From an uncultured Pelagibacteraceae bacterium (lineage in GTDB: Bacteria > Pseudomonadota > Alphaproteobacteria > Pelagibacterales > Pelagibacteraceae), in the NCBI GenBank assembly GCA_902569055.1, contig CACFSU010000004.1, positions 1 through 64,000 of the forward strand: a DNA stretch of 64,000 nt, in the 5' to 3' direction. Under the pieces are notes generated by a model. It worked only from the letters and a program-made list of their open reading frames with translations, was not told the origin of the DNA and ran no database searches. The position numbers and the translations under genes are program-made. Positions 4,256-45,473 of this stretch are shown piece by piece; the stretch's first letter is position 1; each line of letters opens with the position of its first letter.

Positions 4256-5197
4256 TTACCTTAATTTTTTTTCATATCTTTTTCTCATTAAAAGTAAATC
4301 TACCAAATATCTATCTCTTAAATTTGAAATTTTTTTTATTGATTTATTTTTTGATTGTTTTTTAGTCCCTTCAATTAATCTATTGATCAATTTCTTTGAT
4401 AATTTTGGTGCTTTTAGTTTAGTCCAAGGAAATTTTAAAGCTGGTCCAAATTGTTCCAACATATGTTTCATTCCTAACTTCCCTCCTGCTAAGTGAAATG
4501 TTAAAAAAGTACCCATTAATGACCATCGTAAACCAGGTCCATCTTCTATTGCTCTATCTAAGTCTTTCGTATTTGCATGACCCTCATTTATAATATGTAA
4601 CCCTTCCCTCCACAAAGCTTCTTGTAATCTATCTGATAAATAACCTGGCAGTTCGTGCTTAAGAACAATAGTGTTCATAGAAATTGATTTATAAAATTTT
4701 TTAGCTTTGTTTAAAAATTTTTTAGATGTTTTTTTTCCAGGTATAATTTCGATGCCGGGAAGTAAATAAACTGGATTAAATGGATGGCCTATAATTGTTC
4801 TTTCTGGATTTTTACATTTTGAATAAATTCTTGTTGGCAATAAACCTGAAGAACTAGATGAAATTATTGTATTAGATTTTGTATACTTTCCAATAATACT
4901 CATTAATTTAGTTTTTAATGTATAATTTTCAGTGACACATTCTTGTACAAAATCTGCATGTTTTACAGCATCCTCAATAGAGGTGAAATATTTGAAATTT
5001 TTAAGATTAAGATTTTTTTTATTAAAAAGTTTTTTTACATACGGCCATGATCTTTTTATTTCAGCTACTAAATTTTTTTTTAACTTTATGTCTCTATCAA
5101 AAGCATAAACTATTTTGTTATGTGCTAAAAAACGAATAATCCAACCAGTTCCAATAACACCAGTTCCAATAACTGCAATATTTTTAATTTGAGACAT
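4256..5197 (-). CDS. 3-hydroxyacyl-CoA dehydrogenase family protein, probable L-carnitine dehydrogenase (CdhA-like)
   Basis: Rossmann IGTGVIGTGWI; SSSSGLLPTRI, GHPFNPVYLLPGIEI; adjacent to a BKACE gene and a betaine-type transporter. Confidence 0.8.
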   Translation of the reverse strand: MSQIKNIAVIGTGVIGTGWIIRFLAHNKIVYAFDRDIKLKKNLVAEIKRSWPYVKKLFNKKNLNLKNFKYFTSIEDAVKHADFVQECVTENYTLKTKLMSIIGKYTKSNTIISSSSSGLLPTRIYSKCKNPERTIIGHPFNPVYLLPGIEIIPGKKTSKKFLNKAKKFYKSISMNTIVLKHELPGYLSDRLQEALWREGLHIINEGHANTKDLDRAIEDGPGLRWSLMGTFLTFHLAGGKLGMKHMLEQFGPALKFPWTKLKAPKLSKKLINRLIEGTKKQSKNKSIKKISNLRDRYLVDLLLMRKRYEKKLR

Positions 5198-6081
5198 TAC
5201 TTGTGTTTAACAAGTTTTAATTTTTCTCTGGTTTCAGCTGGTGTCATAGGTGAATAACCAAGTTCATCAATAATTCTTATGGCTTTTTCAACTAATTGTG
5301 AATTAGTAGCTAACTTACCTTTAGATAAATATAAGTTATCTTCTAATCCAACTCTTGGATTTCCTCCCATTAAAACAGTTTGAGCAACAAATGGCATTTC
5401 ATTTTTTGATATTGCAAACCCTGACCAGATACCTTCTTTAGGCATAATATCTTTCATAGCTTGCATTGCTAAAGTAGTTGCTGGTGCTCCCCAGGGTATT
5501 CCTAAACACATTTGAAACATTGGTGGATCGCTTAATAATCCTTCCTTATAAAGTTGTGCCCCAAACCACATGTTACCTAAATCAAAAGCTTCTATTTCTG
5601 GTTTTACTTTTATTTCTTGTAATCTTTTTGCAGCTTTTCTTAAATCTCTTGGAGTATTTATAGTTATCACAGATCCATCTCCAAAATTTAATGTTCCACA
5701 ATCTAAAGTACAAATTTCAGGTAAAAATTGTTCTGCATTTGCTATTCTTTCCATTACATTTGCCATATCTGTCATAGGACCAAATTGTAGTGGGCTATTT
5801 TCTCCGATATCGAGATCTCCACCCATTCCAGTCGTTAAATTAATTATAACGTCTGTATCACTTGATCTTATTCTATCTACTACCTCTTTATATAATTCTA
5901 GTCTTCTGCTAGGAGTTCCGTCTTCTTCTCTTACGTGAATATGAGCTATTGCTGCACCAGCTTTTGCTGCCTCAATAGAAGCTTTGGCTATTTGTTCTGG
6001 AGTTTTTGGTAAGTTTGGATGTTTGCTAGCAGTATCTCCAGATCCAGTCACAGCACATGATATGAATACCTTATTGATCAT
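5197..6081 (-). CDS. Beta-keto acid cleavage enzyme (BKACE/DUF849), probable dehydrocarnitine cleavage enzyme (CdhC-like)
   Basis: VFISCAVTGSGDTASKHPNLPKTPEQIA, IAHIHVREEDGTPSR, GGNPRVGLEDNLYLSKG motifs; paired with carnitine dehydrogenase-like gene. Confidence 0.83.
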   Translation of the reverse strand: MINKVFISCAVTGSGDTASKHPNLPKTPEQIAKASIEAAKAGAAIAHIHVREEDGTPSRRLELYKEVVDRIRSSDTDVIINLTTGMGGDLDIGENSPLQFGPMTDMANVMERIANAEQFLPEICTLDCGTLNFGDGSVITINTPRDLRKAAKRLQEIKVKPEIEAFDLGNMWFGAQLYKEGLLSDPPMFQMCLGIPWGAPATTLAMQAMKDIMPKEGIWSGFAISKNEMPFVAQTVLMGGNPRVGLEDNLYLSKGKLATNSQLVEKAIRIIDELGYSPMTPAETREKLKLVKHK

Positions 6082-6131: not shown

Positions 6132-6965
6132 ATGAAAATAAAATTATTATCAGGTGCTTTAGGTGCTGAAATTGAAGGAATTGATTTAACTGACACTTCA
6201 GATACAAACTTTAAAAATATCAATGATTTATTATTAGAACATAAAGTAATTTTTTTTAGAAACCAGCCTATTACTAAAAATCAACAAATTGCCCTTGCTG
6301 AAAAATTTGGTCCTTTGGAAACGCATGCATATGTCAAAGGTTTAGATGATTATCCTGAAATAATTAGGATAGTAAAAGGCAAAGAGGAAAAAAACCAGTG
6401 GGGAGAAAACTGGCATAGTGACGTAAGTTATAATACTAAACCAACTAAAGCTGTTATTTTAAGATCAATTAAAATACCGCCTGTAGGTGGAGACACATGT
6501 TTTTCAAATATGGAATTAGCTTGGGAAACTTTAGATCCTATAATTCAAAATAAGATAAAAGATAAAAAAGCAATTCACAGTTCACTAGGTGCAGAGTTTT
6601 TTATAGAAAATTATAAATATATGGAAGGAAATGAAAAAAAAAATTACGACTCTTATTCTAATGAACATCCGGTAGTTAGAACTCATCCAGAAACCAATAA
6701 GAAAATTTTATTTGTTAATTGGACTTACACTAAGCAAATTATTGGTTTAGATAAAAAAGAAAGCGAACAAATACTAAAGAAAATATTTGAACATCAGGCT
6801 AGACTAGATCTTACTTGTAGATTTAGATGGACAGAAAATACCGTTGCCATTTGGGATAATAGAAGTGTCATCCATTATGCTATAGCAGACTTTTTTCCTG
6901 GTAGAGGCCTAGGACATGAAAGAATAATGGATCGTATTGCAATTGAAGGTGATCATCCTCAATAA
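6132..6965 (+). CDS. TauD/TfdA family Fe(II)/2-oxoglutarate-dependent dioxygenase
   Basis: WHSDVSY (HxD), GGDTCFSNM, distal WDNRSVIHYAIADFFPGRGLGHERIMDR. Confidence 0.9.
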   Translation: MKIKLLSGALGAEIEGIDLTDTSDTNFKNINDLLLEHKVIFFRNQPITKNQQIALAEKFGPLETHAYVKGLDDYPEIIRIVKGKEEKNQWGENWHSDVSYNTKPTKAVILRSIKIPPVGGDTCFSNMELAWETLDPIIQNKIKDKKAIHSSLGAEFFIENYKYMEGNEKKNYDSYSNEHPVVRTHPETNKKILFVNWTYTKQIIGLDKKESEQILKKIFEHQARLDLTCRFRWTENTVAIWDNRSVIHYAIADFFPGRGLGHERIMDRIAIEGDHPQ

Positions 6966-6970
6966 TTTAA

Positions 6971-7507
6971 ATGCAAATTATTGATAAAATAATATCAAAT
7001 TTTACAAACAATAAGTCACTATACATTGGTGAAAAAGTCACTATGTCTGAACATATGATACAAACTGCAATGCTTGCTGAAAAAGCAAAATGTAATGATG
7101 ATTTAATTTGTTCATGTTTATTACACGATTACGGTCATTTCATTTTAGAAAACCCTGATGATTTAATTAAACTAAATGTAGATGGACATCATGAAAATAT
7201 TGGTCACGAATACTTAAAAAGCTTTTTTAAAAAAAATATAGTAGAACCAATAAAATACCATGTCTTAGCAAAACGATATCTTGCTAAAGATAAAAAATAT
7301 TATGATCATCTATCAGAGGCCTCCAAAACAAGCTTAAATCTACAAGGAGGGGTACTAAGTAATGATGAATGTAGTAAGTTTGAAAATCAGAAATATTTTA
7401 AGCCTTCAATACTTTTAAGAAAATTTGATGAAGCAGCAAAAAAAACTAATATTAAAATGAAATCAATCTATGATTATAAAAGACTGTTAGTTTCCAAACT
7501 AAAATGA
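6971..7507 (+). CDS. HD-domain oxygenase-like protein of the PhnZ/TmpB type
   Basis: YIGE (Y-x-x-E lid motif), SEHMIQTA, LLHDYGH, HHENIGHEYL, YHVLAKRYL, LSEASKTSLNLQGG; resembles remembered PhnZ sequence. Confidence 0.78.
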   Translation: MQIIDKIISNFTNNKSLYIGEKVTMSEHMIQTAMLAEKAKCNDDLICSCLLHDYGHFILENPDDLIKLNVDGHHENIGHEYLKSFFKKNIVEPIKYHVLAKRYLAKDKKYYDHLSEASKTSLNLQGGVLSNDECSKFENQKYFKPSILLRKFDEAAKKTNIKMKSIYDYKRLLVSKLK

Positions 7508-9087
7508 AATTTGATTATTTAATTATTGGAGCAGGTTCAGCTGGTTGTGTTCTTGCTAATCGACTTTCAAAAAATAATCAAAATAATGTAGCTATTTTTG
7601 AAGCAGGGAAAACAAGTGATATTTGGAAAGTTAATATGCCTCTTGCAATTTTGTACACAATGCATGATCCCAAATATAATTTTAAATACTACTCAGAACC
7701 AGAACCTTATTTAAAAAATAGAAAACTTTTTTGTCCTAGAGGAAAAATGATTGGTGGCTGTTCTGCTCACAATGGAATGGTGTATGTAAGAGGAAACTCT
7801 AATGATTATCAAAGATGGGCCTCTTTCGGCTTAAAGGATTGGTCATATGAAAAAGTTTTGCCGTATTTCAAAAAAATAGAAACTTGGTCTGAAGGCGAAA
7901 ATGACTATAGAGGTGGAAGTGGAATTTTGCCAGTAAACCAATCAAAAAATAAAAACCCTTTATTTAAAGCCTTTATCGATTCAGCAGGAGAAGCCGGCTA
8001 TAAAATTAATAAAGATATGAATGGCAAAGAACAAGAGGGATTTGGAATGTATGATGTTACTATTCACAAAGGTGAAAGAGCAAGTGTTTCAAAATATTAT
8101 TTAAATCCAGCAAAAAAAAGAGAAAATCTTAAAATTTTCTCAGAAGCATTTGTTGAAAAAGTTATTTTTGAAGGAAAAAAAGCAATAGGTATTGAAGTTA
8201 AAATAAAAAACAAAGTTGAAAAAATTTATGCAAATAAAGAGGTTATACTAAGTGGAGGAGCAATAAATTCTCCACAATTATTAATGCTTTCAGGTGTAGG
8301 ACCTGGAAAACATCTGAAAGAAAAAGGAATTGAAGTTATACACAATCTTGAAGGTGTAGGTAAAAATTTGCAAGATCATTTAGAAACTTATGTTCAACAA
8401 GAATGTAAGACTTCTGACACTTTATATTCATATGTAAATAAATTGAATATGCTAAGAATTGGCATTCAATGGTTTATTAATCGAAGTGGACCTTGTTCAA
8501 CATCATTTTTAGAAGCTGGTGGATTTTGTAAATCTTCATCTGAAAGAGAATATCCCAATATTCAATTTCATTTTTTTCCTTCATTTGTAATTGATCATGG
8601 ATTAATTAATCCTAATCGACATGGATACCAGCTCCATGCAAGTCCAAATCATCCAAAAAGTAGAGGACTTATAACTTTAAAAACTTCTAACCCATATGAT
8701 TACCCTAAAATTCAGTTTAATTACTTAGAAAATGAAGATGATCTAAAACAAACTATAGAATGTATTCATGTAGCAAGGAAAATACTTGGGCAAAATTCCC
8801 TAAAACCTTTCGCTGGAAAAGAAATTGGGCCAGGAGAAAATGTTAATTCAGATGAATTGTTTGAAGAATATATCAGATCTAAAGCTGAAACAGCTTATCA
8901 CCCGTCTTGTACTTTAAAAATGGGTACAGATAACATGGCTGTAGTAGATGAAAAACTTAAAGTTCATGGGCTAAAAAATATTAGAGTTATTGATGCCTCA
9001 GTGATGCCTGAAATTACAAGCGGAAACTTAAATGCACCAACATTAATGATAGCAGAAAGAGCATCTGAATTTATTCTTAATTCATGA
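7504..9087 (+). CDS. GMC family oxidoreductase (choline dehydrogenase-like, FAD)
   Basis: DYLIIGAGSAGCVLANRLS, SGGAINSPQLLMLSGVGP, YHPSCTLKMG, SGNLNAPTLMIAERAS; ATGA overlap with preceding gene. Confidence 0.92.
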   Translation: MKFDYLIIGAGSAGCVLANRLSKNNQNNVAIFEAGKTSDIWKVNMPLAILYTMHDPKYNFKYYSEPEPYLKNRKLFCPRGKMIGGCSAHNGMVYVRGNSNDYQRWASFGLKDWSYEKVLPYFKKIETWSEGENDYRGGSGILPVNQSKNKNPLFKAFIDSAGEAGYKINKDMNGKEQEGFGMYDVTIHKGERASVSKYYLNPAKKRENLKIFSEAFVEKVIFEGKKAIGIEVKIKNKVEKIYANKEVILSGGAINSPQLLMLSGVGPGKHLKEKGIEVIHNLEGVGKNLQDHLETYVQQECKTSDTLYSYVNKLNMLRIGIQWFINRSGPCSTSFLEAGGFCKSSSEREYPNIQFHFFPSFVIDHGLINPNRHGYQLHASPNHPKSRGLITLKTSNPYDYPKIQFNYLENEDDLKQTIECIHVARKILGQNSLKPFAGKEIGPGENVNSDELFEEYIRSKAETAYHPSCTLKMGTDNMAVVDEKLKVHGLKNIRVIDASVMPEITSGNLNAPTLMIAERASEFILNS

Positions 9088-10034
9088 CAAAAGTACAAAA
9101 TAATCCTAAAGGTATTCTATTTATTCTGCTTGGAATGGCAGTGTTCTCTATTCAAGATGCTTTAATTAAATTCATTTATGAAGATGCTGCATTATACGAA
9201 TTATATTTTGGGCGAACCATTGTTGCTCTAACATTATTAGTTGGATATCTTAAATTTTCTAAACAAAAAATAATTTTAAAAACCTACTACCCTTTTTTAA
9301 CAATCTTAAGAGTTATATGTTTCTTTTTTGGATTTAGTTTTTTTTACATTTCTTTAACTTATATGTCTCTTGCAATGGCAAATGCATTATTTTTCTCTAG
9401 TCCTTTTTTTGTTTCAATTTTGGCTACTATATTTTTAAAAGAAAAAGTTGGTATTAGAAGATGGACTGCAATTTTTATTGGATTTATAGGAGTGTTTATT
9501 ATTTTAAATCCAGACTTTAATAATTTTGATTATATGAAATTAGCTCCAGTAGCTTGTGCGTTATGTTATGCTATCTCTATGACTATAACTAAAATAACTT
9601 CTTATAAAGATAATGTTTACACTCAAATGCTACATTTATATTTTGGTGCAATTTTAATTAGTATCATATTTTATTTTTTTACAGGTAAGGGACAATTAAA
9701 TACTTTTAATGATCCTACTTTTCAATTCATTTTTAGAGAATGGCTTACCAATCCCTCTTACGCTTGGCCATTTATTATAATTATGGGGTTTACGGGTGTT
9801 TTTGCATTTTATTTTGTTTTTAATGCCTATAGTATTGCATCTCCTTCTGTAGTTTCTCTTTATGAGTATTCTCTGATAATCTGGTCAATATTAACTGGTT
9901 ATATTGTATTCAATAATATCCCTACAATTAGAACTTTAGTTGGAGTTATAATAATAATAAGTGCAGGTATATATATTTATCTTAGAGAAAAAGCCAAAGA
10001 TCAAATGATTATTACAGACACTCCAAATAGATAA
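9084..10034 (+). CDS. EamA/DMT superfamily transporter
   Basis: ~10 TM segments, drug/metabolite transporter pattern; ATGA overlap with preceding gene. Confidence 0.85.
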   Translation: MTKVQNNPKGILFILLGMAVFSIQDALIKFIYEDAALYELYFGRTIVALTLLVGYLKFSKQKIILKTYYPFLTILRVICFFFGFSFFYISLTYMSLAMANALFFSSPFFVSILATIFLKEKVGIRRWTAIFIGFIGVFIILNPDFNNFDYMKLAPVACALCYAISMTITKITSYKDNVYTQMLHLYFGAILISIIFYFFTGKGQLNTFNDPTFQFIFREWLTNPSYAWPFIIIMGFTGVFAFYFVFNAYSIASPSVVSLYEYSLIIWSILTGYIVFNNIPTIRTLVGVIIIISAGIYIYLREKAKDQMIITDTPNR

Positions 10035-10170: not shown

Positions 10171-11340
10171 ATGAAATTTGGATACTTTTGTAATACTACT
10201 AATTGGACTCACAAGCCCTACCACGAACTATTAGACGAAACTAGAGAGATCACAGAATATTGTGATCAAAACAAATGGAATTCTATTTGGTATACAGAGC
10301 ATCATTTTAATCATGAAGGAATGGAGTCTTGTACAAATCCTTTAATGATGGGTGTTGATGCTGCCGCAAGAACTAATCAAATCAGAATTGGTCAAGCTTG
10401 CAATGTAATTACTTTCCATAATCCTATACAAATGGCAGAAGATGTTGCTCTTTTAGATCAATTATCGAAAGGTAGAGTAGAAGTTGGTATTGGTAGAGGA
10501 ATTTACGGAAGAGAAGCTGTTAATCTAAATATTGAAGCTGATATGAAAGATCAAGCTAAAAACTTTAGACTATTTGAAGAAACTTTAACTATATTAAAAA
10601 AAGCATGGAAAGAAAAATTTTTTGATCATAAAGGTGAATTTTATACTTATCCTTCACCTGATTATGTATGGAAACATGACATGAGTAAACCAAGTGAAGA
10701 ATTTATAGATATTAAAACTAATGTAATGAAAAAAATTAGTGTTTTACCTCAACCTTATCAAAAACCTTATCCCCCAATTCATCAAGTTGTAGATGGTATA
10801 CGATCTATCGAATGGGCTGCCCAACAAGGTTTAAACATCATTATGTGGATACCAACAGTTAAAGCGTTAAAAATTAAATTTGAAGCTTTCAAAAATGCAA
10901 AATCTGAGTCTGAAAAAAGAAATGTGCCAATGGGTGAAGGAATTTCACTTGTAAGAGATATGTTTGTAGCTGACACGATGGAAGAAGCTAAAGAAAAAGC
11001 TGGCGAACATATGGTCAATTACATGAGATGGGTTTGTCATTGGCGAGGCCTTGGGAATCATATGGATCCAGGTGAAGAACTGCCTGAGACAAAAGGTAAG
11101 TTAGATTTATTAAATTATGAATTTTTACATAAAAGAAATATGTTATTTGGAACTCCAGAATTTGTTATTGATAAAATTAATGAATTGAAATCTGAACTAA
11201 ACTTACAAAACTTACAAGTTTGGTCTAACTTTCCCGGTGTAAAACATAAAGACTGTATGAAAAGTATTAAACTTTTTACTGAAAAGGTAATGCCTCATTT
11301 TCAGGATAATGTTGATACTGAAGTCAAAAAAGTTTCGTGA
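10171..11340 (+). CDS. LLM class (luciferase-like) flavin-dependent monooxygenase
   Basis: WYTEHHF, AARTNQIRIGQACNVITFHNPIQMAEDVALLDQLSKGRVEVGIGRG; strong SD aaaggagga. Confidence 0.9.
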   Translation: MKFGYFCNTTNWTHKPYHELLDETREITEYCDQNKWNSIWYTEHHFNHEGMESCTNPLMMGVDAAARTNQIRIGQACNVITFHNPIQMAEDVALLDQLSKGRVEVGIGRGIYGREAVNLNIEADMKDQAKNFRLFEETLTILKKAWKEKFFDHKGEFYTYPSPDYVWKHDMSKPSEEFIDIKTNVMKKISVLPQPYQKPYPPIHQVVDGIRSIEWAAQQGLNIIMWIPTVKALKIKFEAFKNAKSESEKRNVPMGEGISLVRDMFVADTMEEAKEKAGEHMVNYMRWVCHWRGLGNHMDPGEELPETKGKLDLLNYEFLHKRNMLFGTPEFVIDKINELKSELNLQNLQVWSNFPGVKHKDCMKSIKLFTEKVMPHFQDNVDTEVKKVS

Positions 11341-13037
11341 TCAAATCATGTAAGAAAATTACTGGTGGTCAAGCCACAGTTCAATCTTTAAAAAAAGAAA
11401 ATGTGAATAATGTTTTTGGTCTTATAGGATCAGCTACAATGGAAATTTTTGATGCTCTTTATCATGAAAAAAAAATCAAATTTATTGGTGTAAGAGATGA
11501 AAGAACAGGGGCACACATGGCAGATGGTTATGCAAGGGCGTCTAATAAACCTGGTGTAATTATAGCTGGACAAAATGGGCCAGGAGCTACCAACTTAGTA
11601 ACTGGAGTAGCTCAAGCAAAAGCAGCTTTTTCTCCTGTAATAGCTATTGCGGGATCTCACTCAACAAAAGATAAAATGGAGGATGCATTTCAAGGTCTTG
11701 ATCAACAATCTTTATTTACTCCAATTACAAAAAAAACGTGGACAGTTAAAAATTCAAAAATTATTCCAAACGTAATTAGTAATGCTTTTAGTTTAGCAAT
11801 GAAACCTAGAAGAGGACCCGTATGTGTTAATCTACCTAGAAACACTCTAGCAGAAACAAATAGTTACAATATAGATATAAATAAATCTTCTTTTTCTTTC
11901 GAAAGTAATCTCAAAGGAGATTTTAAAAAAATCAGAAAAACAACTAAAATTATAAATCAAGCGAAACAACTTGTAATAATTGCTGGAGGCGGAATTAAAT
12001 ACGCTGCTAAATATAAAGAAGTAATTAAACTTGCTGAATTTTTAAATATACCAATAGTTACTGCTGCAGGTCATGGAGATGCTATTCCATTTAATCATAA
12101 ATTGAATGCAGGTCAAATGGGGCCAAGAGGAAATCCAGTTGCATCAAAACTTGTTAAAAAAGCAGATGTCATATTAGCAATTGGTACTAGATTGGGCTTT
12201 AACTCTACGTTTTATTCTTATGATAATATAAATAAAAAGGCGAAAATTATTCAAATTGAAATTGAAAAAAAAATGCTCGGAAAATACTTTCCAATAACTA
12301 TTGGAATTAACGCTGATGCAGCTACGGCCACCAATCAAATATATAACGAGATAAAAAAACAGAGAATTAAATTAAATCTCAAAAATTGGACTAACTCATA
12401 TCTAAAGGAAAGAAAAAATTATTTGAAAAATAGAGACAAATATAATCTTGGAAAAAATTTCCCCATTCAACCAAAAGGATTATTCAAACAACTAAGAAAA
12501 GCTCTACCAAAAGATACTGCTATAACTTTAGATGCTGGAACACTTTGTTTGCAAGCTACAGATGCTTTAGAATATTATAATCCACCATCTTTATTTACAC
12601 CTTTGGACTTTGGTTTAGTTGGTTTTTCATTCGCTTGTGGTCTTGGAGTTAAAATTGCAAAACCAAAAAAAACTGTTGTTAGTCTAATGGGAGATGGAGG
12701 ATTTGGTATGACTATATCTGAGTTAAGTACAGCAGTCGAATATGGAATAAATACTACAACCATAGTAATGAATAATCAAAGTTGGGGAGCTGAGAAAGCT
12801 TATCAAAAAGATTTTTTTGGAAAAAGATATCTAGGTGCGGATATTACTAGTCCTTCTTTTGATAAAGTTGCTGAATTATATGGTGCAAAAGGTTTCAAAG
12901 TTAAAAAAATTTCTCAAGTAAGTGAGGCTGTTAGAGCAGCTATAAAATGTAATAAGCCTGCAGTAGTTGATATAGATGTAGATCCTAGCGCATTATATAG
13001 TTTTAGAAAAGATAGTTTTAAACATAGGCAAAAATAG
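11337..13037 (+). CDS. ThDP-dependent enzyme, sulfoacetaldehyde acetyltransferase (Xsc)-like / acetolactate synthase superfamily
   Basis: RDERTGAHMADGYARA, GQNGPGATN, GDGGFGMTISEL...MNN (ThDP motif), NNQSWGAEKAYQKDF resembling Xsc; GTGA overlap with LLM gene. Confidence 0.75.
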   Translation: MIKSCKKITGGQATVQSLKKENVNNVFGLIGSATMEIFDALYHEKKIKFIGVRDERTGAHMADGYARASNKPGVIIAGQNGPGATNLVTGVAQAKAAFSPVIAIAGSHSTKDKMEDAFQGLDQQSLFTPITKKTWTVKNSKIIPNVISNAFSLAMKPRRGPVCVNLPRNTLAETNSYNIDINKSSFSFESNLKGDFKKIRKTTKIINQAKQLVIIAGGGIKYAAKYKEVIKLAEFLNIPIVTAAGHGDAIPFNHKLNAGQMGPRGNPVASKLVKKADVILAIGTRLGFNSTFYSYDNINKKAKIIQIEIEKKMLGKYFPITIGINADAATATNQIYNEIKKQRIKLNLKNWTNSYLKERKNYLKNRDKYNLGKNFPIQPKGLFKQLRKALPKDTAITLDAGTLCLQATDALEYYNPPSLFTPLDFGLVGFSFACGLGVKIAKPKKTVVSLMGDGGFGMTISELSTAVEYGINTTTIVMNNQSWGAEKAYQKDFFGKRYLGADITSPSFDKVAELYGAKGFKVKKISQVSEAVRAAIKCNKPAVVDIDVDPSALYSFRKDSFKHRQK

Positions 13038-13667
13038 ATGTCACAAAAAGATATTGGTAATAAAATTCCAATTTATAAATTAAAAGCGGGTAAAGAAGTT
13101 GAAGAATATTACGATGAATGGACTGTGGAAAATAAATACGACAAAGACATGGTTGATTGGAAATATTCTGGACCACAAGAAACTGTAAATCTCTTTGAAA
13201 AACATATTTCTCAAAAAAATATCAAAATATTAGATGCTGGTTGTGGAACTGGTTTAGTAGGCGTTGAGCTTAAAAAAAAAGGTTTTACAAATATTGATGG
13301 AGCAGATTTTTCTCAAAAAATGCTGGATTTAGTTCCACAAAAAATCTATAAAAATTTATTTAAAATTAACCTTAATCAAAAAGTTAATATTAATGATAAT
13401 ACTTACGAAGGAATAACATGTGTTGGCACTTTTACATTTGGTCATGTTTACCCTCAAGCTCTAGATGAGATGGTAAGAATTTGCAAAATTAAGTCTTTAA
13501 TTTGTTTTACAATTAATATCGGAATTTATGAAGAATATGGGTTTGACAAAAAGATCAAAGAATTAGAGGATAATAATTCTTGGAAAATAATTAAATTTTT
13601 TAAATCAAATTATATTGCAAGCAAAGGGGTTAACGCTTGGTTAGTTTTAGCTCAGGTAATTAAATAA
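13038..13667 (+). CDS. Class I SAM-dependent methyltransferase
   Basis: ILDAGCGTGLVGVEL, GADFSQKML. Confidence 0.85.
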   Translation: MSQKDIGNKIPIYKLKAGKEVEEYYDEWTVENKYDKDMVDWKYSGPQETVNLFEKHISQKNIKILDAGCGTGLVGVELKKKGFTNIDGADFSQKMLDLVPQKIYKNLFKINLNQKVNINDNTYEGITCVGTFTFGHVYPQALDEMVRICKIKSLICFTINIGIYEEYGFDKKIKELEDNNSWKIIKFFKSNYIASKGVNAWLVLAQVIK

Positions 13668-13673
13668 AAAATT

Positions 13674-14261
13674 ATGGATATTAATTTAAGAAAATTTACA
13701 AAATTTGTTGATAAAACTTTCATAGAAGGTGGCAAAAAAGCTAAAGAGCCTGTTTTATTAGTTTCAGTTGCTGCAGTTTTTAAAAATCCTTGGCATGGAC
13801 AAGGTTTTGTTGAAAACTTAAGACCTGCAATTTTAGAATTAGCTCCAAGGTTAGGGGATTTACTTGTTCCTGAATTAATTAAAGAAATAGGATCTCCTGA
13901 AAAAATATTAGCATATGGTAAAGCTGGTATAGTTGGATTAAATGGAGAAATAGAACATGCTTCAGCTTTTATTCATACATTAAGGTTTGGTAACAAATTT
14001 AGAGATGCTGTTGGAGGAACTTCGTACTTAAGCTTTACTAATACTAGAGGTCCAGCAGGGTCAAAAGTTTCTATTCCTATGATGCATAAAACAGACTCTG
14101 GTCTCAGACCTTATTATTTAACTCATGAATTTACAATACATGATGCTCCATTTGAAAATGAGATAGTAATTGCTATAGGTGGTGCTTCAAGTGGAAGAGC
14201 TCATGCAAGAACAGGTGATAGATACCAAGATATGAAAGAAATGGGTATTGAGCCTAAATAA
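13674..14261 (+). CDS. PF06684 (DUF1185, 'amino acid synthesis') family protein
   Basis: VAAVFKNPWHGQGFVENLRPAI, YGKAGIVGLNGEIEHASAFIHT, IAIGGASSGRAHARTGDRYQDM. Confidence 0.8.
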   Translation: MDINLRKFTKFVDKTFIEGGKKAKEPVLLVSVAAVFKNPWHGQGFVENLRPAILELAPRLGDLLVPELIKEIGSPEKILAYGKAGIVGLNGEIEHASAFIHTLRFGNKFRDAVGGTSYLSFTNTRGPAGSKVSIPMMHKTDSGLRPYYLTHEFTIHDAPFENEIVIAIGGASSGRAHARTGDRYQDMKEMGIEPK

Positions 14262-14267
14262 AACTTG

Positions 14268-15050
14268 ATGATATCTGGAACTACTTCTTCTGGGACATTT
14301 TATATTTTTAATAAAAAAGAAAAATTAATACCTATAGTATTTATTCATGGAGTGGGATTAACATATGAAATTTGGCAGCCACAAATAAATTATTTTAAAA
14401 ATTATTCTACTCTTTCATATGATATTTTAGGACATGGAAAGTCATTACTAAAAAAACATGATATCAATTTTGATGATTTTTCAAATCAACTTATAGAATT
14501 AATTGATGAACTTAAAATTAATAGAATCCATTTAATTGGTTTTTCAATCGGTTCCTTAATTGCTAGAAATTTTGCAATAAAATTTAATAATAGATTACAA
14601 TCATTAATTCTTTTAGGATCTATATATAAGAGATCAGAGGAACAACAAAAAATTGTTAATACAAGATTTAATCAAGCTAAGAAAGAACTAAAGCTCTCTA
14701 AAAAAGCCTTAAAGAGATGGTTTACAGATAAATATTTGGAAAACAATCCAAATATATATAAAAACATTAATTCTATTTTATCATCTAATAATATGAAAAA
14801 CTTTTTAAAAGTTTATGAGCTTTTTGTTAATCATAAAAATGAAGAAGATTTCAAAAAAATAAAAGTTAATACTTTGATAATGACTGGAGAATTTGATTTA
14901 GGTTCAACAATTGAGATGTCAAAAAAATTGAATAAAATAATCAAAAATAGTCAACTTAAGATCATTAAAAATGGCAAACATCTTTGTGGTATTGAATGTG
15001 CAGATGAGGTAAATTCAGCGATTAAAACATTTATAGAAAAAAATGACTAA
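14268..15050 (+). CDS. Alpha/beta hydrolase (3-oxoadipate enol-lactonase-like)
   Basis: FIHGVGLTYEIWQPQ, YDILGHGKS, LIGFSIGSLIA nucleophile elbow; ATG at 14268 preferred over upstream TTG. Confidence 0.85.
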   Translation: MISGTTSSGTFYIFNKKEKLIPIVFIHGVGLTYEIWQPQINYFKNYSTLSYDILGHGKSLLKKHDINFDDFSNQLIELIDELKINRIHLIGFSIGSLIARNFAIKFNNRLQSLILLGSIYKRSEEQQKIVNTRFNQAKKELKLSKKALKRWFTDKYLENNPNIYKNINSILSSNNMKNFLKVYELFVNHKNEEDFKKIKVNTLIMTGEFDLGSTIEMSKKLNKIIKNSQLKIIKNGKHLCGIECADEVNSAIKTFIEKND

Positions 15051-16524
15051 ATTAAAACATTATCAAATGTTCATTAATGGTGAATGGGTAGAGGCTGAAA
15101 ATAAAAAAACTTTCGAAACTTTAAATCCCGAAAATAACAAACCATGGGCAACTGTGCCAGAAGCTAGTTCTAAGGATGTAGACAAAGCAGTAAAAGCAGC
15201 TCAAAAAGCGTTTGATGGTGAATGGCCTAAATTACTTCCAAGAGAAAGAGCAAAATTTTTAAGAGCTATAGGAGAACAATTAAGAGAAAATGCTGAATTA
15301 CTTGGTAAAATAGAAACTATAGATACAGGAAAAATTTTTAGGGAAACAAAAAAACAGGCTAACTATATTGCAGAATATTATGATTATTATGCAGGATTAG
15401 CAGATAAAGTTGAGGGTACAGTCTTACCAATTGATAAACCAAATGTTCAAGCACTTACAACTAGAATTCCCATAGGAGTTATAGCCGCAATAGTCCCATG
15501 GAATTCCCAAATGTTTTTAACTGCAACTAAACTTGCACCCGCTTTAGCAATGGGAAATACAATTGTGCTTAAATCTTCAGAGTTAGCTCCAGCTGTGATA
15601 TTTGAATTTGCTAAACTAGTAGAAAAAATTGATCTTCCAAAAGGAGTTCTAAATGTTATTACTGGTTTTGGAGATCCTTGTGGAAAAGCTCTAACCTCTC
15701 ACGATCTTGTTGAAAAAGTTGCATTTACAGGGGGACCAGAAACTGCAAGACATATAATTAGAAATTCTGCAGAAAATTTATCTGAAGTTAGTTTAGAACT
15801 TGGGGGAAAAAGTCCAGTTGCAGTATTTAATGACGCTAATCAAGAAAATGCAATTAATGGTATAGTTGCAGGAATATTTGGTGCAACAGGTCAAAGCTGT
15901 ATTGCAGGGTCAAGACTTTATATCCAAGAAGAAATTTATAATGATTTTTTGAAAAAACTAACTGAACGTGCAGAAAAAATAAAAATTGGTACACCATTGA
16001 ATACAGAAACAGAAATGGGTCCATTGAATAATTTCAAACAATTAGAAATTATTGAGAATAATATTAAAAAAACTATTGAACAGGGAGGAAAAATTAAAAC
16101 TGGAGGTAAAAGACATTCTTTTTCAAATGAAGGATATTATTTTCCGCCAACTATAATTGAATGTGATAATCACAATCTACCGGCTGCTGAAAATGAACTA
16201 TTTGGACCAATATTATCAGTAATGAAATTCAAAACTGAGGAAGAGATTATAAAAAAAATGAACGACAATAAATATGGTCTATCTTCAGGTGTCTATACAA
16301 GTGATCTTGCGAGAGGGATGAGGGTTTCTAAAGCAATTCGAGCAGGTATAACATTTGTAAATACCTATAGATTAATTTCACCTTCTGCACCATTTGGAGG
16401 AATTAAAGATAGTGGCTACGGAAAAGAAGCAGGAATCGAATCAATTAAAGATTACACAAGAATAAAAACAACATGGTTTTATACTTCAGATAAGCCAATA
16501 CCAGATCCTTTTACAATAGGTTAA
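15043..16524 (+). CDS. Aldehyde dehydrogenase (NAD(P)+)
   Basis: IVPWNSQMF, VSLELGGKSP, GATGQSCIAGSR catalytic Cys; 8-nt overlap with preceding gene. Confidence 0.93.
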   Translation: MTKLKHYQMFINGEWVEAENKKTFETLNPENNKPWATVPEASSKDVDKAVKAAQKAFDGEWPKLLPRERAKFLRAIGEQLRENAELLGKIETIDTGKIFRETKKQANYIAEYYDYYAGLADKVEGTVLPIDKPNVQALTTRIPIGVIAAIVPWNSQMFLTATKLAPALAMGNTIVLKSSELAPAVIFEFAKLVEKIDLPKGVLNVITGFGDPCGKALTSHDLVEKVAFTGGPETARHIIRNSAENLSEVSLELGGKSPVAVFNDANQENAINGIVAGIFGATGQSCIAGSRLYIQEEIYNDFLKKLTERAEKIKIGTPLNTETEMGPLNNFKQLEIIENNIKKTIEQGGKIKTGGKRHSFSNEGYYFPPTIIECDNHNLPAAENELFGPILSVMKFKTEEEIIKKMNDNKYGLSSGVYTSDLARGMRVSKAIRAGITFVNTYRLISPSAPFGGIKDSGYGKEAGIESIKDYTRIKTTWFYTSDKPIPDPFTIG

Positions 16525-37769: not shown

Positions 37770-37870
37770 ACAAAAAGATAATACTTATTGTTATTATAGT
37801 GTTAGCTATAGAATTATCAGGTCATGGAATCATAGTTTCATTAATAAGATTATTAAATTCTATGAATTAA
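37766..37870 (+). CDS. Candidate 34-aa hydrophobic small protein (MNKKIILIVIIVLAIELSGHGIIVSLIRLLNSMN)
   Basis: ATGA overlap with preceding micro-ORF; stop codon overlaps that of the convergent gene in TTAA. Confidence 0.4.
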   Translation: MNKKIILIVIIVLAIELSGHGIIVSLIRLLNSMN

Positions 37871-38658
37871 TTTGCATCTAGAACAGCATGCAAAAATTGT
37901 TTTGTTCTTTCATTTTGAGGATTTCCAAATAGTTTTTCTGGTGGTCCTTGTTCAAATATTTTTCCTTCATTAAAAAAACATACTCTATCAGAAATTTCTC
38001 TAGCAAAACCCATTTGATGAGTGACCATGATCATCGTTAAGTTATGTTCTTTATTTAAAGATCTAATTACATTTAAAACTTCTCCAACAACCTCTGGATC
38101 TAATGCTGATGTTATTTCATCTAAAAGCATCACTTTTGGCCTCATAGCAAGCGCTCTCGCGATAGCAACTCTTTGTTGTTGTCCTCCTGATAGCCTACTT
38201 GGATGTTGATCTTTTTTATCAGTTAAACCAACAAGTTCTAATAATTCCAAAGCTCTTTTCTCTGCCTGTTCTTTTTTCATTCCTAATACTTCTACTGGTG
38301 CCTCTATACAATTTTGTAATGCTGTCATGTGTGGAAATAAATTAAATTGTTGAAACACCATTCCTATTTTTGACCTTCTCTCTCTTAAGTATCTCTCATT
38401 GGCTTCGACAAAACTTCCATTTATATTTGTATGCGTTAAAGGTTCGCCATCTAAATGAATTACTCCTCCATTTATCTTCTCTAAAGTCATTAAAACTCTC
38501 AATACTGTTGTTTTTCCGGATCCAGATGGGCCTATGATTGAAACCATTTCATTTTTTTTAATTTCCAGATTAAGTTTATCTAAAACAACTAAATCGCCAT
38601 ATTGTTTAGTTACATTTTCAAACTTGACTATGACTTCATCTGAGTTGTTATTTTTCAT
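37867..38658 (-). CDS. Polar amino acid/ectoine-type ABC transporter ATP-binding protein
   Basis: GPSGSGKTT, LSGGQQQRVAIARALAMRPKVMLLDEITSALDPE. Confidence 0.93.
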   Translation of the reverse strand: MKNNNSDEVIVKFENVTKQYGDLVVLDKLNLEIKKNEMVSIIGPSGSGKTTVLRVLMTLEKINGGVIHLDGEPLTHTNINGSFVEANERYLRERRSKIGMVFQQFNLFPHMTALQNCIEAPVEVLGMKKEQAEKRALELLELVGLTDKKDQHPSRLSGGQQQRVAIARALAMRPKVMLLDEITSALDPEVVGEVLNVIRSLNKEHNLTMIMVTHQMGFAREISDRVCFFNEGKIFEQGPPEKLFGNPQNERTKQFLHAVLDAN

Positions 38659-38660
38659 AA

Positions 38661-39338
38661 TTATTTTTTAATTTTACCTTGCGCTATATTAACATCTCTT
38701 TCAAGTTTTCTAACCCACATTGCAGCAGGTATTGATAATGTTAAAAAGATAATACCAACTAAAGTATAAGGCTCTAAATATCTATAGTTATAACCACCAA
38801 CTGCAGTAGCAGCATGGAATAGTTCCGCAACACCAATCGTTGATAAAAGAGGTGTATCTTTAAATATTCCAACTAAGTAATTTCCCATTCCTGGAATAGC
38901 TATAGGAAATGCTTGAGGAAGAACTATTCTTCTGTAAGTGTAAATTGTAGAAAAATTTAAAGCTCTGCAAGCTTCCCATTGTGTTTTTGATACTCCCTCA
39001 AGTGCCCCACGATATACTTCTGACATATATGTTCCAAAGTGAAGACCAATAGTAATCATTCCACACACCCAGGCAGATAAAGTAATGCCAAATTGTGGTA
39101 GTACGAAATAAACGAAAAATAATTGTATTAGTAATGGTGTCGATCTAATAAACTCAACTATTTCTCTATTAACCCAATTGAAAATTTTTGAAGGTGTTCT
39201 TTGTGCTAATAAAAAAAATAATCCAACAATCAAAGCAATCGCATAACCTACTCCAGCTGCTAAAATAGTATTAAGTGTTGCGATTGCCATTTGAGGCAAT
39301 ATTTCATAGGTAAAATCCCACCTCCAACCCATTTCCAT
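38661..39338 (-). CDS. Amino acid/ectoine-type ABC transporter permease
   Basis: His/Glu/Gln permease pattern: FIRSTPLLIQLFFVYFVLP, GALEGVSKTQWEACRALNFS. Confidence 0.9.
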   Translation of the reverse strand: MEMGWRWDFTYEILPQMAIATLNTILAAGVGYAIALIVGLFFLLAQRTPSKIFNWVNREIVEFIRSTPLLIQLFFVYFVLPQFGITLSAWVCGMITIGLHFGTYMSEVYRGALEGVSKTQWEACRALNFSTIYTYRRIVLPQAFPIAIPGMGNYLVGIFKDTPLLSTIGVAELFHAATAVGGYNYRYLEPYTLVGIIFLTLSIPAAMWVRKLERDVNIAQGKIKK

Positions 39339-39340
39339 AT

Positions 39341-40012
39341 TTAAATTTTCTCCTTTCCAACTTTTCTAGCTGCTAAAACTTCTAACCATCTTAAAAATGG
39401 AACCAATGCAAATCTAGCCATTATGTAGTAAATAAGTAATGCTGTTCCAAAACATTGTGCTGATAACCACGTAATAGAGTTAATTTGTTTTGCTTCAAAA
39501 GTTAAATCAACCACAGTAACTAATGCTACCAATGCAGTAGCTTTTAATAATTCTACAGTTAAATTTGCAGCAGGTGGTAATATTATTGGAAATATTTGTG
39601 GTATTATAATTCTTTTAATTTTTTTTGCAGGCGTAAAATTTAATGAATGAGCAGCTTCCCATTGTCCTTTAGGTACTGCAAGGATCCCTGCTCTAACTAT
39701 TTCAGCACCGTATGCTCCAAAATTCAAACCTAAAGCTACTACTCCTGCTGTAAAAGCTTCTAAAGAAATTCCAAAAAATGGTAATACATAATAAGCCCAG
39801 AATAATTGCACTAGAAGTGACGTTCCTCTAAAAAATTCTATATATACAGTAGCTATACCTTGTATTACAGGATTTTTAGAAAGTCTCATTAAACCAAATA
39901 TCATAGAAATGATTACATAAAGAATCATTGAGCAAACAAGAACTTTCATTGTCGTTACTGTTCCAAGTAAAAGAGTAATTCCGTGTTCGTTTAAAAATTC
40001 AAAATATGTCAA
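39341..40012 (-). CDS. Amino acid/ectoine-type ABC transporter permease
   Basis: FFRGTSLLVQLFWAYYVLPFFG, AGILAVPKGQWEAAHSLNFT; TTG start at 40012 with upstream AAAGGA preferred; the longer ORF starts inside a hairpin. Confidence 0.85.
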   Translation of the reverse strand: MTYFEFLNEHGITLLLGTVTTMKVLVCSMILYVIISMIFGLMRLSKNPVIQGIATVYIEFFRGTSLLVQLFWAYYVLPFFGISLEAFTAGVVALGLNFGAYGAEIVRAGILAVPKGQWEAAHSLNFTPAKKIKRIIIPQIFPIILPPAANLTVELLKATALVALVTVVDLTFEAKQINSITWLSAQCFGTALLIYYIMARFALVPFLRWLEVLAARKVGKEKI

Positions 40013-40034
40013 AGTAATTCCTTTAGATTTATAA

Positions 40035-40064
40035 AAACCAGGCAACAATTTAGTTGCCTGGTTT
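40035..40064 (-). terminator. Hairpin between substrate-binding protein and permease genes
   Basis: aaaccaggcaac-aattta-gttgcctggttt: perfect 12-bp stem. Confidence 0.75.
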
Positions 40065-40085
40065 ATCTTTTAATAGCTTATTAAA

Positions 40086-40928
40086 TTATTTAGTTGAGCA
40101 AGCCCACTCAGTACTCATGTCAGGCGGAGGTAGTTGAGCTTTATCATACCCATACTCTCCAGCTCTTTTCAACATAGTTGCTGGGTTAGCCATAACTTTA
40201 GCTAGAGCAGCATTAAATGCTTCTCTAAATTTGTCATCACCTTTTCTAAATCCAATACCTACTACGTTTAAAGTTTCCTTAGGCATTAATTTTGGATCAG
40301 TAACTTCAAATTTTCCATTAGTTTTTTTCTCATGTTCTTTAGCACCAAAGAATGTTTGCACTGCAACGTCAGCTCTTCCAGCTTTCATTGCTGCTAAAAT
40401 TCCAACTTCACCTTCAACTAAAAGCATTTGACTATCTGGCACACCGTATTTTTTAGCCGCTTCTACAGTATTAAATCCAGTTCCTGTTACTAATTTAGCT
40501 CCAGTTGAAATAACATCAGCATAATTGTTAATATTTTTTGGATTTCCTTTTGGTACTAGCATTGCATCACCAAAAACACCTATAGGATCTGAAAAGTCCA
40601 TGTTTGCACATCTACTTTTTAAGATATACATACCACCAGTAATCATATCTGCACGGTCTGCATTTAATCCTGGGATTAATCCTGACCATTCAAAAACTTT
40701 TGTTTCATGTTCAGTGATACCCATCTCTTCTAGAACTGTTAATGCTATCATGTTAACAAATCCTAAAGCTTCACCACCATCTCCAGCATAAGCCCATGGC
40801 ACCGCTGTTCCAAAACCTAATCTTAATTTGTGCCCATCTGCAAGTCTCTCTGTAAGTGTTTTTGCATTTACAGTAGAAATTGAAAAAAGAAGCACTAATA
40901 AGATTGTTAATGATTTAAATAATCTCAT
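40086..40928 (-). CDS. ABC transporter substrate-binding protein, ectoine/hydroxyectoine (EhuB)-like
   Basis: Signal peptide; LRLGFGTAVPWAYAGDGGEALGFVNMI, FEWSGLIPGLNADRADMITGGMYILKSRC. Confidence 0.78.
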   Translation of the reverse strand: MRLFKSLTILLVLLFSISTVNAKTLTERLADGHKLRLGFGTAVPWAYAGDGGEALGFVNMIALTVLEEMGITEHETKVFEWSGLIPGLNADRADMITGGMYILKSRCANMDFSDPIGVFGDAMLVPKGNPKNINNYADVISTGAKLVTGTGFNTVEAAKKYGVPDSQMLLVEGEVGILAAMKAGRADVAVQTFFGAKEHEKKTNGKFEVTDPKLMPKETLNVVGIGFRKGDDKFREAFNAALAKVMANPATMLKRAGEYGYDKAQLPPPDMSTEWACSTK

Positions 40929-41831: not shown

Positions 41832-42659
41832 ATGACTTATCTTTCATCAAATCAACTTAAACAGTACAAAGATAAAGGATTTGTTTCTCCAATAAATATT
41901 TTTTCAAAAGAGAAAGCAAACGAAATACGAAATGAAATTGAGTTAATCGAAAATAAAATGCCTGGAGAATTAGAAAAATCAGGTAGATACAATGCGCATT
42001 TGATTTCACCCTTATTAGATGATGTTACTCATAATTCAAAAATTTTAGATGCAGTTCAAAGTTTAATTGGAGAAAATATTCTTGTTTGTGGAACTACTTT
42101 ATTTATAAAAAATCCAAATGAAAAAGGATTTGTTAGTTATCACCAAGATGCAAAATACATAGGATTAAAACCATATAATTGGGTAACCGCTTGGGTTGCT
42201 ATCACTAATTCAAATGAAAAAAATGGATGTATGAGAATGTGGTCTGGTTCTCACAAAGATAATCTTAAAAAACATGATCAAAAATTCAATGCGGGAAATT
42301 TATTAACTAGAGGTCAAACTGTTCAAAATGTACCAAAAGAAGAAACAACACCTTTAATCTTAAAAGCAGGACAAATGTCCTTGCATCATCCAACTGTGGT
42401 TCATGGTTCAGATCTAAATAAAAGCAATGACCGAAGAATAGGATTTGTAATACAAAGTTATATTGGCACTGATGTTAAACAAGTGCTAGGTAAAAATGGT
42501 GTTCAGCTAGCAAGAGGAATAGATAAATTTAATTACCATGAAAAAATTAGAAGACCACAAAAATTAATGGATGAAAATGATATAAAATTAAAAAAACAAG
42601 AAAATAATAATCTTCAAGAAATTTTTTATAAAGGTTCTGATAAGAAAGGTAAATTTTGA
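41832..42659 (+). CDS. Phytanoyl-CoA dioxygenase (PhyH) family protein
   Basis: YHQDAKYIGL (HxD), NGCMRMWSGSHK, LHHPTVVHGSDLNKSNDRRIGF. Confidence 0.9.
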   Translation: MTYLSSNQLKQYKDKGFVSPINIFSKEKANEIRNEIELIENKMPGELEKSGRYNAHLISPLLDDVTHNSKILDAVQSLIGENILVCGTTLFIKNPNEKGFVSYHQDAKYIGLKPYNWVTAWVAITNSNEKNGCMRMWSGSHKDNLKKHDQKFNAGNLLTRGQTVQNVPKEETTPLILKAGQMSLHHPTVVHGSDLNKSNDRRIGFVIQSYIGTDVKQVLGKNGVQLARGIDKFNYHEKIRRPQKLMDENDIKLKKQENNNLQEIFYKGSDKKGKF

Positions 42660-44702: not shown

Positions 44703-45473
44703 TTATCTGCTTCTTGCACCAGCTGAACTTACTGCAGCAGCCCAGATTACTAGACCAAATGCAATTTTGTTTATAAAGTCAGCTAAGTTGTAAACTACGT
44801 TTAGTGAATTAGCATCTACACCACCTGTTAGGTAACCAAATACATAACCTAATGGGTAAATTGCCCAACCTACAGTTACAATCATTCTCATTGCACTGAA
44901 TGCAGTTACAAGAGATTTGTTTCCACTCTTAGCAGCAGCTTTTCCAGCTTCACCTGAGAATACTTCATAAAGAATGTATACCCAACCTGCCATACCAATT
45001 ATAAAACCAAGCGTAGCGTTGATGTATCCAGCTTCTCCTAAGTATCCACCGATTAACATTACTAATGAACCAATTAACAATCTCCAGAAAATTCCAGAGT
45101 TTGCTTTTCTTACAGCTACTAGAATTAAATAGAATTCTACCATCTGTAATGGCACAGTAATTAACCAATCAATATATCTATATACTGTTGGTGAATCACC
45201 TGTAGTCACCCAAACATCTCTCATGTACATGTAGTGAATGAATGCAATACCAGTTACAAGACCTGCAACAGTTACTGACGTTTTCCAGCCAGGTGCGACA
45301 GTACTTCTTTCCATGAAGAAAAACGCTGTAGCAGCTAACATACCCATTGAAATTACCCAAAAGGAAATTCCAACAAAGTCATCAGAAGCTAACATAGCGG
45401 TCGCAGCGTTTGCAACACCTGTAACACCCAATAGGGCAACAGCTGTAAGAGCAAACAATTTAAGTTTTTTCAT
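44703..45473 (-). CDS. Proteorhodopsin (light-driven proton pump, blue-tuned residue)
   Basis: RYIDWLITVPLQMVEFYLIL (D97, T101, Q105, E108 equivalents) and ADFINKIAFG Schiff-base Lys; signal peptide. Confidence 0.96.
   Translation of the reverse strand: MKKLKLFALTAVALLGVTGVANAATAMLASDDFVGISFWVISMGMLAATAFFFMERSTVAPGWKTSVTVAGLVTGIAFIHYMYMRDVWVTTGDSPTVYRYIDWLITVPLQMVEFYLILVAVRKANSGIFWRLLIGSLVMLIGGYLGEAGYINATLGFIIGMAGWVYILYEVFSGEAGKAAAKSGNKSLVTAFSAMRMIVTVGWAIYPLGYVFGYLTGGVDANSLNVVYNLADFINKIAFGLVIWAAAVSSAGARSR

Follow-up and report, generated by a model that had tools for sequence, protein, structure and literature searches.

Marine bacteria of the SAR11 group are among the most abundant in the ocean, and in one of their genomes a gene for a TauD-family dioxygenase lies immediately upstream of a gene for an HD-domain protein resembling the oxygenases that split carbon-phosphorus bonds. 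Do these two genes encode a pathway, and if so, for which substrate? We addressed this question in a stretch of 64,000 nucleotides (hereafter the window) from a 957-kb genome of SAR11 type that is 75% complete and whose named relatives are Pelagibacteraceae. The precedent closest at hand is TmpA/TmpB, which converts trimethyl-2-aminoethylphosphonate (trimethyl-AEP) into glycine betaine with release of phosphate (PMC10574752).

The locus and its betaine neighbourhood

The genes at and around the pair are as follows.

12-2885 (12-764, 831-1850, 1860-2885), + strand: ProX/ProW/ProV-like glycine betaine-type ABC transporter (OpuAC, PF04069, 3e-31)
4256-5197, - strand: L-carnitine dehydrogenase-like protein (PRK07066, 338 bits, below the cut-off of 414)
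5197-6081, - strand: BKACE (beta-keto acid cleavage enzyme; PF05853, 3e-93), adjoining the carnitine dehydrogenase-like gene
6132-6965, + strand: TauD-family Fe(II)/2-oxoglutarate dioxygenase, 277 aa (PF02668, E=9e-58); putative C1 hydroxylase
6971-7507, + strand: PhnZ/TmpB-family HD-domain diiron oxygenase, 178 aa (TIGR03276, 3e-50); putative C-P bond cleavage
7504-9087, + strand: GMC oxidoreductase of the choline dehydrogenase (BetA) type (PRK02106, 733 bits, above the cut-off of 605)
9084-10034, + strand: EamA-family transporter (PF00892, 3e-27), usually 3' of the GMC gene in neighbourhood maps

The first-pass annotation of this DNA had described the TauD and HD ORFs as separated by 5 nt, and both were indeed found there, intact and with that gap. 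The motifs it listed were present as well, namely WHSDVSY and HYAIADFFPGRG in the dioxygenase and YIGE, LLHDYGH, HHENIGHEYL, YHVLAKRYL and LSEASKTSLNLQGG in the HD protein. Absent from it was a third gene of the operon, that of the BetA-like GMC, which begins 4 nt before the end of the HD gene, so that start and stop codon share the sequence ATGA, and whose product scored 665 bits with TIGR01810, below the cut-off of 732. In the ProXWV-like transporter the PF04069 match is to the binding protein, and the permease and ATPase were read as ORFs. Neighbourhood maps again placed this transporter beside the cluster in relatives, in which a thioesterase gene is a further member of the neighbourhood. 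BKACE would probably cleave dehydrocarnitine to a betainyl product, as judged from its family and from the carnitine dehydrogenase-like gene beside it. The carnitine dehydrogenase-like protein, BKACE, the BetA-like GMC, ProXWV and the thioesterase of the relatives all concern glycine betaine. The TauD-HD locus has no phosphonate transporter, nor was any sign of regulation by P noticed.

Several other genes of the window were recorded. A second catabolic operon lies 3' of the pair (10171-16524, + strand), encoding a luciferase-like monooxygenase, an Xsc-like TPP enzyme (402.8 bits against a cut-off of 676.4), a methyltransferase, an AA_synth-domain protein, an alpha/beta hydrolase and a betaine-aldehyde-dehydrogenase-like ALDH; this gene set was found again in many relatives. 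An ectoine/hydroxyectoine-type ABC transporter is encoded at 37867-40928 (- strand; EhuA model 404 bits, above the cut-off of 345; EhuB 158, below 191), and a gene at 44703-45473 (- strand) looks by eye like that of a proteorhodopsin.

The HD protein and its relatives

Profile searches matched the HD protein to TIGR03276 (Phn-HD, 3e-50), the TmpB model (6e-46) and the PhnZ1 model (1e-40), and among PDB sequences to TmpB (6npa, 1.7e-30) and PhnZ (4mlm, 9e-25). Its scores lie below the curated cut-offs (156.6 of 300 bits for the TmpB equivalog, 170 of 214.6 bits for TIGR03276), which are strict, since the HD protein of a betaproteobacterial TmpA-HD pair (L219) also misses them, with a Phn-HD score of 209. 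The metal ligands H28, H52/D53, H74, H97 and D153 are invariant in 93 SAR11-clade sequences, one ambiguous residue excepted, and K101, S118 and R150 hardly vary among these relatives. The YxxE motif (Y18-IG-E21) occurs in all 92 readable sequences of the clade; it forms a substrate-gated lid that is a mark of PhnZ and TmpB (PMC8177086). When the AlphaFold model (pLDDT 95.3) was compared with the PDB, all 10 matches with E<0.001 were PhnZ or TmpB (TM 0.82-0.91), and myo-inositol oxygenase (MIOX) and hydrolases had E>0.1. On these structure matches to PhnZ and TmpB only, together with the HMMs, an ordinary HD phosphohydrolase was rejected. Ligands, lid, predicted fold and sequence thus agree in supporting the assignment as a PhnZ/TmpB-type diiron oxygenase, which had been proposed from the motifs alone.

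Which of the two enzymes the HD protein resembles more closely bears on its substrate. The SAR11 HD proteins, TauD-linked and TmpA-linked together, form a single clade (support 100/100) on a long branch, and the tree does not fix where this clade stands with respect to that of Leisingera TmpB; assigning the protein to the TmpB or the PhnZ clade was dropped on account of these long branches. The model fits PhnZ as well as it fits TmpB. Both the fold match and the tree, which does not put the SAR11 clade within that of TmpB, would suit an enzyme acting on another phosphonate, 2-AEP or its mono- or dimethyl derivative, and releasing glycine, sarcosine or dimethylglycine with phosphate; glycine would be a useful product given the unusual glycine auxotrophy reported for SAR11 (PMC12478193). 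We hold such a substrate to be quite improbable, as the TmpA-linked sister HD proteins described below and the glycine betaine neighbourhood favour a trimethyl compound.

The TauD-type dioxygenase and the place of TmpA

The partner of the HD protein belongs to PF02668 and not to PF05721, so it is not a PhyH-type PhnY or PhnY*, and it gave no match to the TmpA model NF049936 at E<=0.01. The earlier reading of the partner as TauD-type, rather than PhyH-type or butyrobetaine-hydroxylase-type, was therefore upheld. Its AlphaFold model (pLDDT 92.3) has AAD-1, RdpA, PlaO1 and TauD as best PDB matches. We aligned it to E. coli TauD, whose sequence was checked against 1gqw, and found the two alike in fold and in the Fe ligands (H95, D97, H248) and 2-oxoglutarate arginine (R264), which are invariant. 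The anion-binding residues H65 and R268 (own numbering) are also kept; they stand for H70 and R270 of the E. coli enzyme, which bind the sulfonate and are retained by every SAR11 TauD sequence. The differences lie around the amine: D94, N95 and S158, which position the taurine amine in TauD (PMC9304159), are replaced by W, G and E in the window and by W, G and E/G/A among the SAR11 proteins, and Y73, also near the amine, is replaced too. Given the loss of D94, N95 and S158, the protein is unlikely to be a standard taurine dioxygenase; its score with the taurine dioxygenase equivalog (229.8 of 313 bits) is below the cut-off. Little can be concluded about a trimethylammonium substrate from the aromatic residue at position 94, because it also occurs in most other alphaproteobacterial TauD relatives checked. 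A role as gamma-butyrobetaine hydroxylase was rejected, since relatives carry a separate GBBH-like gene (c9) near the ProXWV and carnitine genes.

Orthologues of the HD protein are found next to a different hydroxylase. In one locus (L145) the HD gene divergently adjoins TmpA (542 bits against a cut-off of 400), and in another (L088) it stands divergently beside a relative 76% identical to that TmpA. These HD orthologues of the same family are 54-57% identical, and at least 2 genomes of a sister subclade thus carry TmpA beside HD. Among 385 alphaproteobacterial genomes, TmpA was present at 17 of the 29 loci of the best HD relatives and TauD at none of the 29, and none of the closest non-SAR11 TauD relatives (<=45%) adjoins an HD gene. 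The sister HD proteins and these class-wide counts indicate that SAR11 replaced TmpA at this locus, or never had it there, and uses a TauD-type gene instead. A literature search for PhnZ paired with a taurine dioxygenase returned nothing relevant.

Two other genes of the genome to which the window belongs were considered as hidden partners and rejected. A TmpA-like protein encoded on contig C12 is 57% identical to one (that of L090) scoring below the TmpA cut-off, and its gene is present in most SAR11 genomes tested, with or without HD, showing no association. The PhyH gene at 41832-42659 reached 25 bits against the PhnY cut-off of 500, and its presence does not track that of HD.

Linkage of the genes and the proposed pathway

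TauD lies directly upstream, and GMC directly downstream, in the same 67 of 83 distinct SAR11-clade HD genes. The TauD-HD gap in these loci ranges from -1 to 9 nt. Tighter still than this linkage is the HD-GMC overlap, which is exactly 4 nt in 67/67 loci and likewise in 17/17 loci without an intact adjacent TauD, a set that includes duplicates, contig ends and broken TauD genes. Of 297 genomes of the family, 37 have HD and 39 have TauD; 26 have the two together, where about 5 would be expected. The pairing is real, conserved and above chance. All three genes are under strong purifying selection (median dN/dS 0.04-0.05).

The linkage is nevertheless incomplete in both directions, so that the two genes are not an obligate pair, a point that the earlier proposal had not foreseen. 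TauD occurs without an HD gene in 12-13 genomes, 12 of them >=92% complete and the thirteenth incomplete, and in nearly all HD-less loci read TauD is followed directly by GMC. Conversely, 8 distinct loci carry HD-GMC without TauD, with HD directly after a thioesterase gene. Since both arrangements exist, TauD-GMC and HD-GMC are separable modules. Three genomes with an HD-less TauD (G020, G117, G189) have an HD gene of the TmpA-linked clade elsewhere, and four (G095, G224, G342, G344) a more distant HD, which in G095 is near PhnX and a phosphonate-binding protein.

Some loci merit separate mention. A distant SAR11 HD in L091, about 44% identical to that of the window, lies near PhnX (277 bits, above the cut-off of 220) and a PhnD-type binding protein in a separate phosphonate cluster of the same genus; L243 and L244 show a similar order of genes. 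TauD is split into two ORFs beside an intact HD in L085 and L202 (same contig) and in L189, through decay or single-cell sequencing error. On contig C13 of genome G000 a second GMC homologue (42%, 14851-16447) reads in two frames, possibly owing to a frameshift. The CitE-like gene c24 of L032 and L080-082 was discarded as a replacement hydroxylase, as its product is an HpcH/HpaI aldolase-type protein.

That HD-GMC loci lacking TauD persist alongside TauD-GMC loci lacking HD, and that a TmpA-like gene exists on contig C12, would accord with two independent genes sharing a betaine operon by chance, the HD enzyme then using a hydroxylase encoded elsewhere or imported 1-hydroxyphosphonates. Such independence is very improbable in view of the immediate linkage of 67/83 HD genes to TauD at gaps of a few nucleotides; the TmpA-like gene, moreover, is widespread even in genomes lacking both HD and TauD, and the PhyH gene is neither PhnY nor a companion of HD.

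On balance, we favour by a little the reading in which TauD and HD constitute a two-step oxidative phosphonate pathway like TmpA/TmpB, with a TauD-type hydroxylase and most likely trimethyl-AEP as the compound converted to phosphate and glycine betaine. In the first step TauD, with Fe(II), 2-oxoglutarate and O2, would introduce a hydroxyl group at C1 of an N-methylated 2-aminoethylphosphonate; the likeliest candidate is N,N,N-trimethyl-AEP, which is to phosphonates what phosphocholine is to phosphate esters. In the second step, for which homology argues strongly, the 1-hydroxyphosphonate would be split at its C-P bond by the mixed-valent diiron HD enzyme, with phosphate and glycine betaine as products. 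Choline, by way of the co-translated BetA-like GMC, and carnitine, by way of the divergent carnitine genes, would contribute to that pool of glycine betaine as well. The first-pass annotation had suggested a new, N-methylated substrate: the N-methylated theme fits the betaine neighbourhood, whereas novelty is less well supported, because that neighbourhood and the TmpA-adjacent HD relatives make the known TmpA/TmpB substrate (N-trimethyl-2-aminoethylphosphonate) likelier. Glycine betaine is oxidised for energy by SAR11 (PMC12478193), and M3AEP is reported to be frequent in nature, with a single degradation pathway described as of 2023 (PMC10590968).

The pathway reading is weakened by the TauD genes without HD and the HD-GMC loci without TauD, and because the two modules are separable, a broader role of TauD deserves weight. 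Analogues with a sulfonate or sulfate group may be among its substrates too. As a full alternative, it would be a broad enzyme for quaternary-ammonium anions (e.g. trimethyltaurine or choline-O-sulfate), whose 1-hydroxy sulfur products would collapse spontaneously to betaine aldehyde and be oxidised to glycine betaine by GMC, with HD an optional addition for stable 1-hydroxyphosphonates, so that the operon would serve both sulfur and phosphorus analogues. The GMC gene directly after TauD in HD-less loci is consistent with this, as is the retained H70/R270 anion clamp combined with the loss of the taurine-amine residues; among TauD relatives whose structures are known are taurine dioxygenases and the alkylsulfatase AtsK. 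The pocket points the same way: SAR11 TauD proteins have either W204/Y206 or S204/M205/Y206 (E. coli numbering), one change on the tree separates the two types, and the S-type accounts for 11/17 HD-less TauDs vs 14/65 with HD. Both pocket types occur with HD, however, and most loci that have an HD gene have TauD adjoining it; among the neighbours of the pair, no gene for handling sulfite or sulfate was identified. We regard this alternative as unlikely. Rather unlikely, too, in our estimation is a wider evolutionary scenario, in which TauD independently evolved C1 hydroxylation of quaternary-ammonium phosphonates, displaced TmpA in Pelagibacteraceae and also serves sulfur analogues, HD being an optional rescue for 1-hydroxyphosphonates and the whole tied to glycine betaine supply and not to phosphate starvation.

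Compared with known systems, the favoured TauD-HD pathway shares with TmpA/TmpB of Leisingera caerulea the HD ligands, lid and fold, a 2OG hydroxylase encoded alongside and the likely product glycine betaine. It differs in its short TauD-type hydroxylase, in the co-translated GMC and in an HD protein that belongs to its own SAR11 clade and scores below the TmpB cut-off. PhnY*/PhnZ (2-AEP) and the Gimesia PhnY/PhnZ1 (methylphosphonate) have the same HD oxygenase family and two-step logic, but their hydroxylases are of the PhyH type and that of the window is TauD-type. In the fungal PhoF, hydroxylase and HD activities are likewise genetically linked; PhoF, however, is a fused PhnY-PhnZ protein (PMC10574752), unlike the separate genes and TauD-type hydroxylase found here.

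In one survey Pelagibacterales contributed 45% of marine phnZ sequences, phnZ being taken there as 2-AEP catabolism yielding glycine (PMC9381506). If the pathway proposed here is correct, surveys of phosphonate use would mis-assign the substrate of this phnZ subset and overlook its hydroxylase, which annotation would name taurine dioxygenase. TauD would then be a second enzyme family that starts trimethyl-AEP degradation, and SAR11 probably has, to go by its genes, a second route from a choline-like phosphonate to phosphate and glycine betaine.
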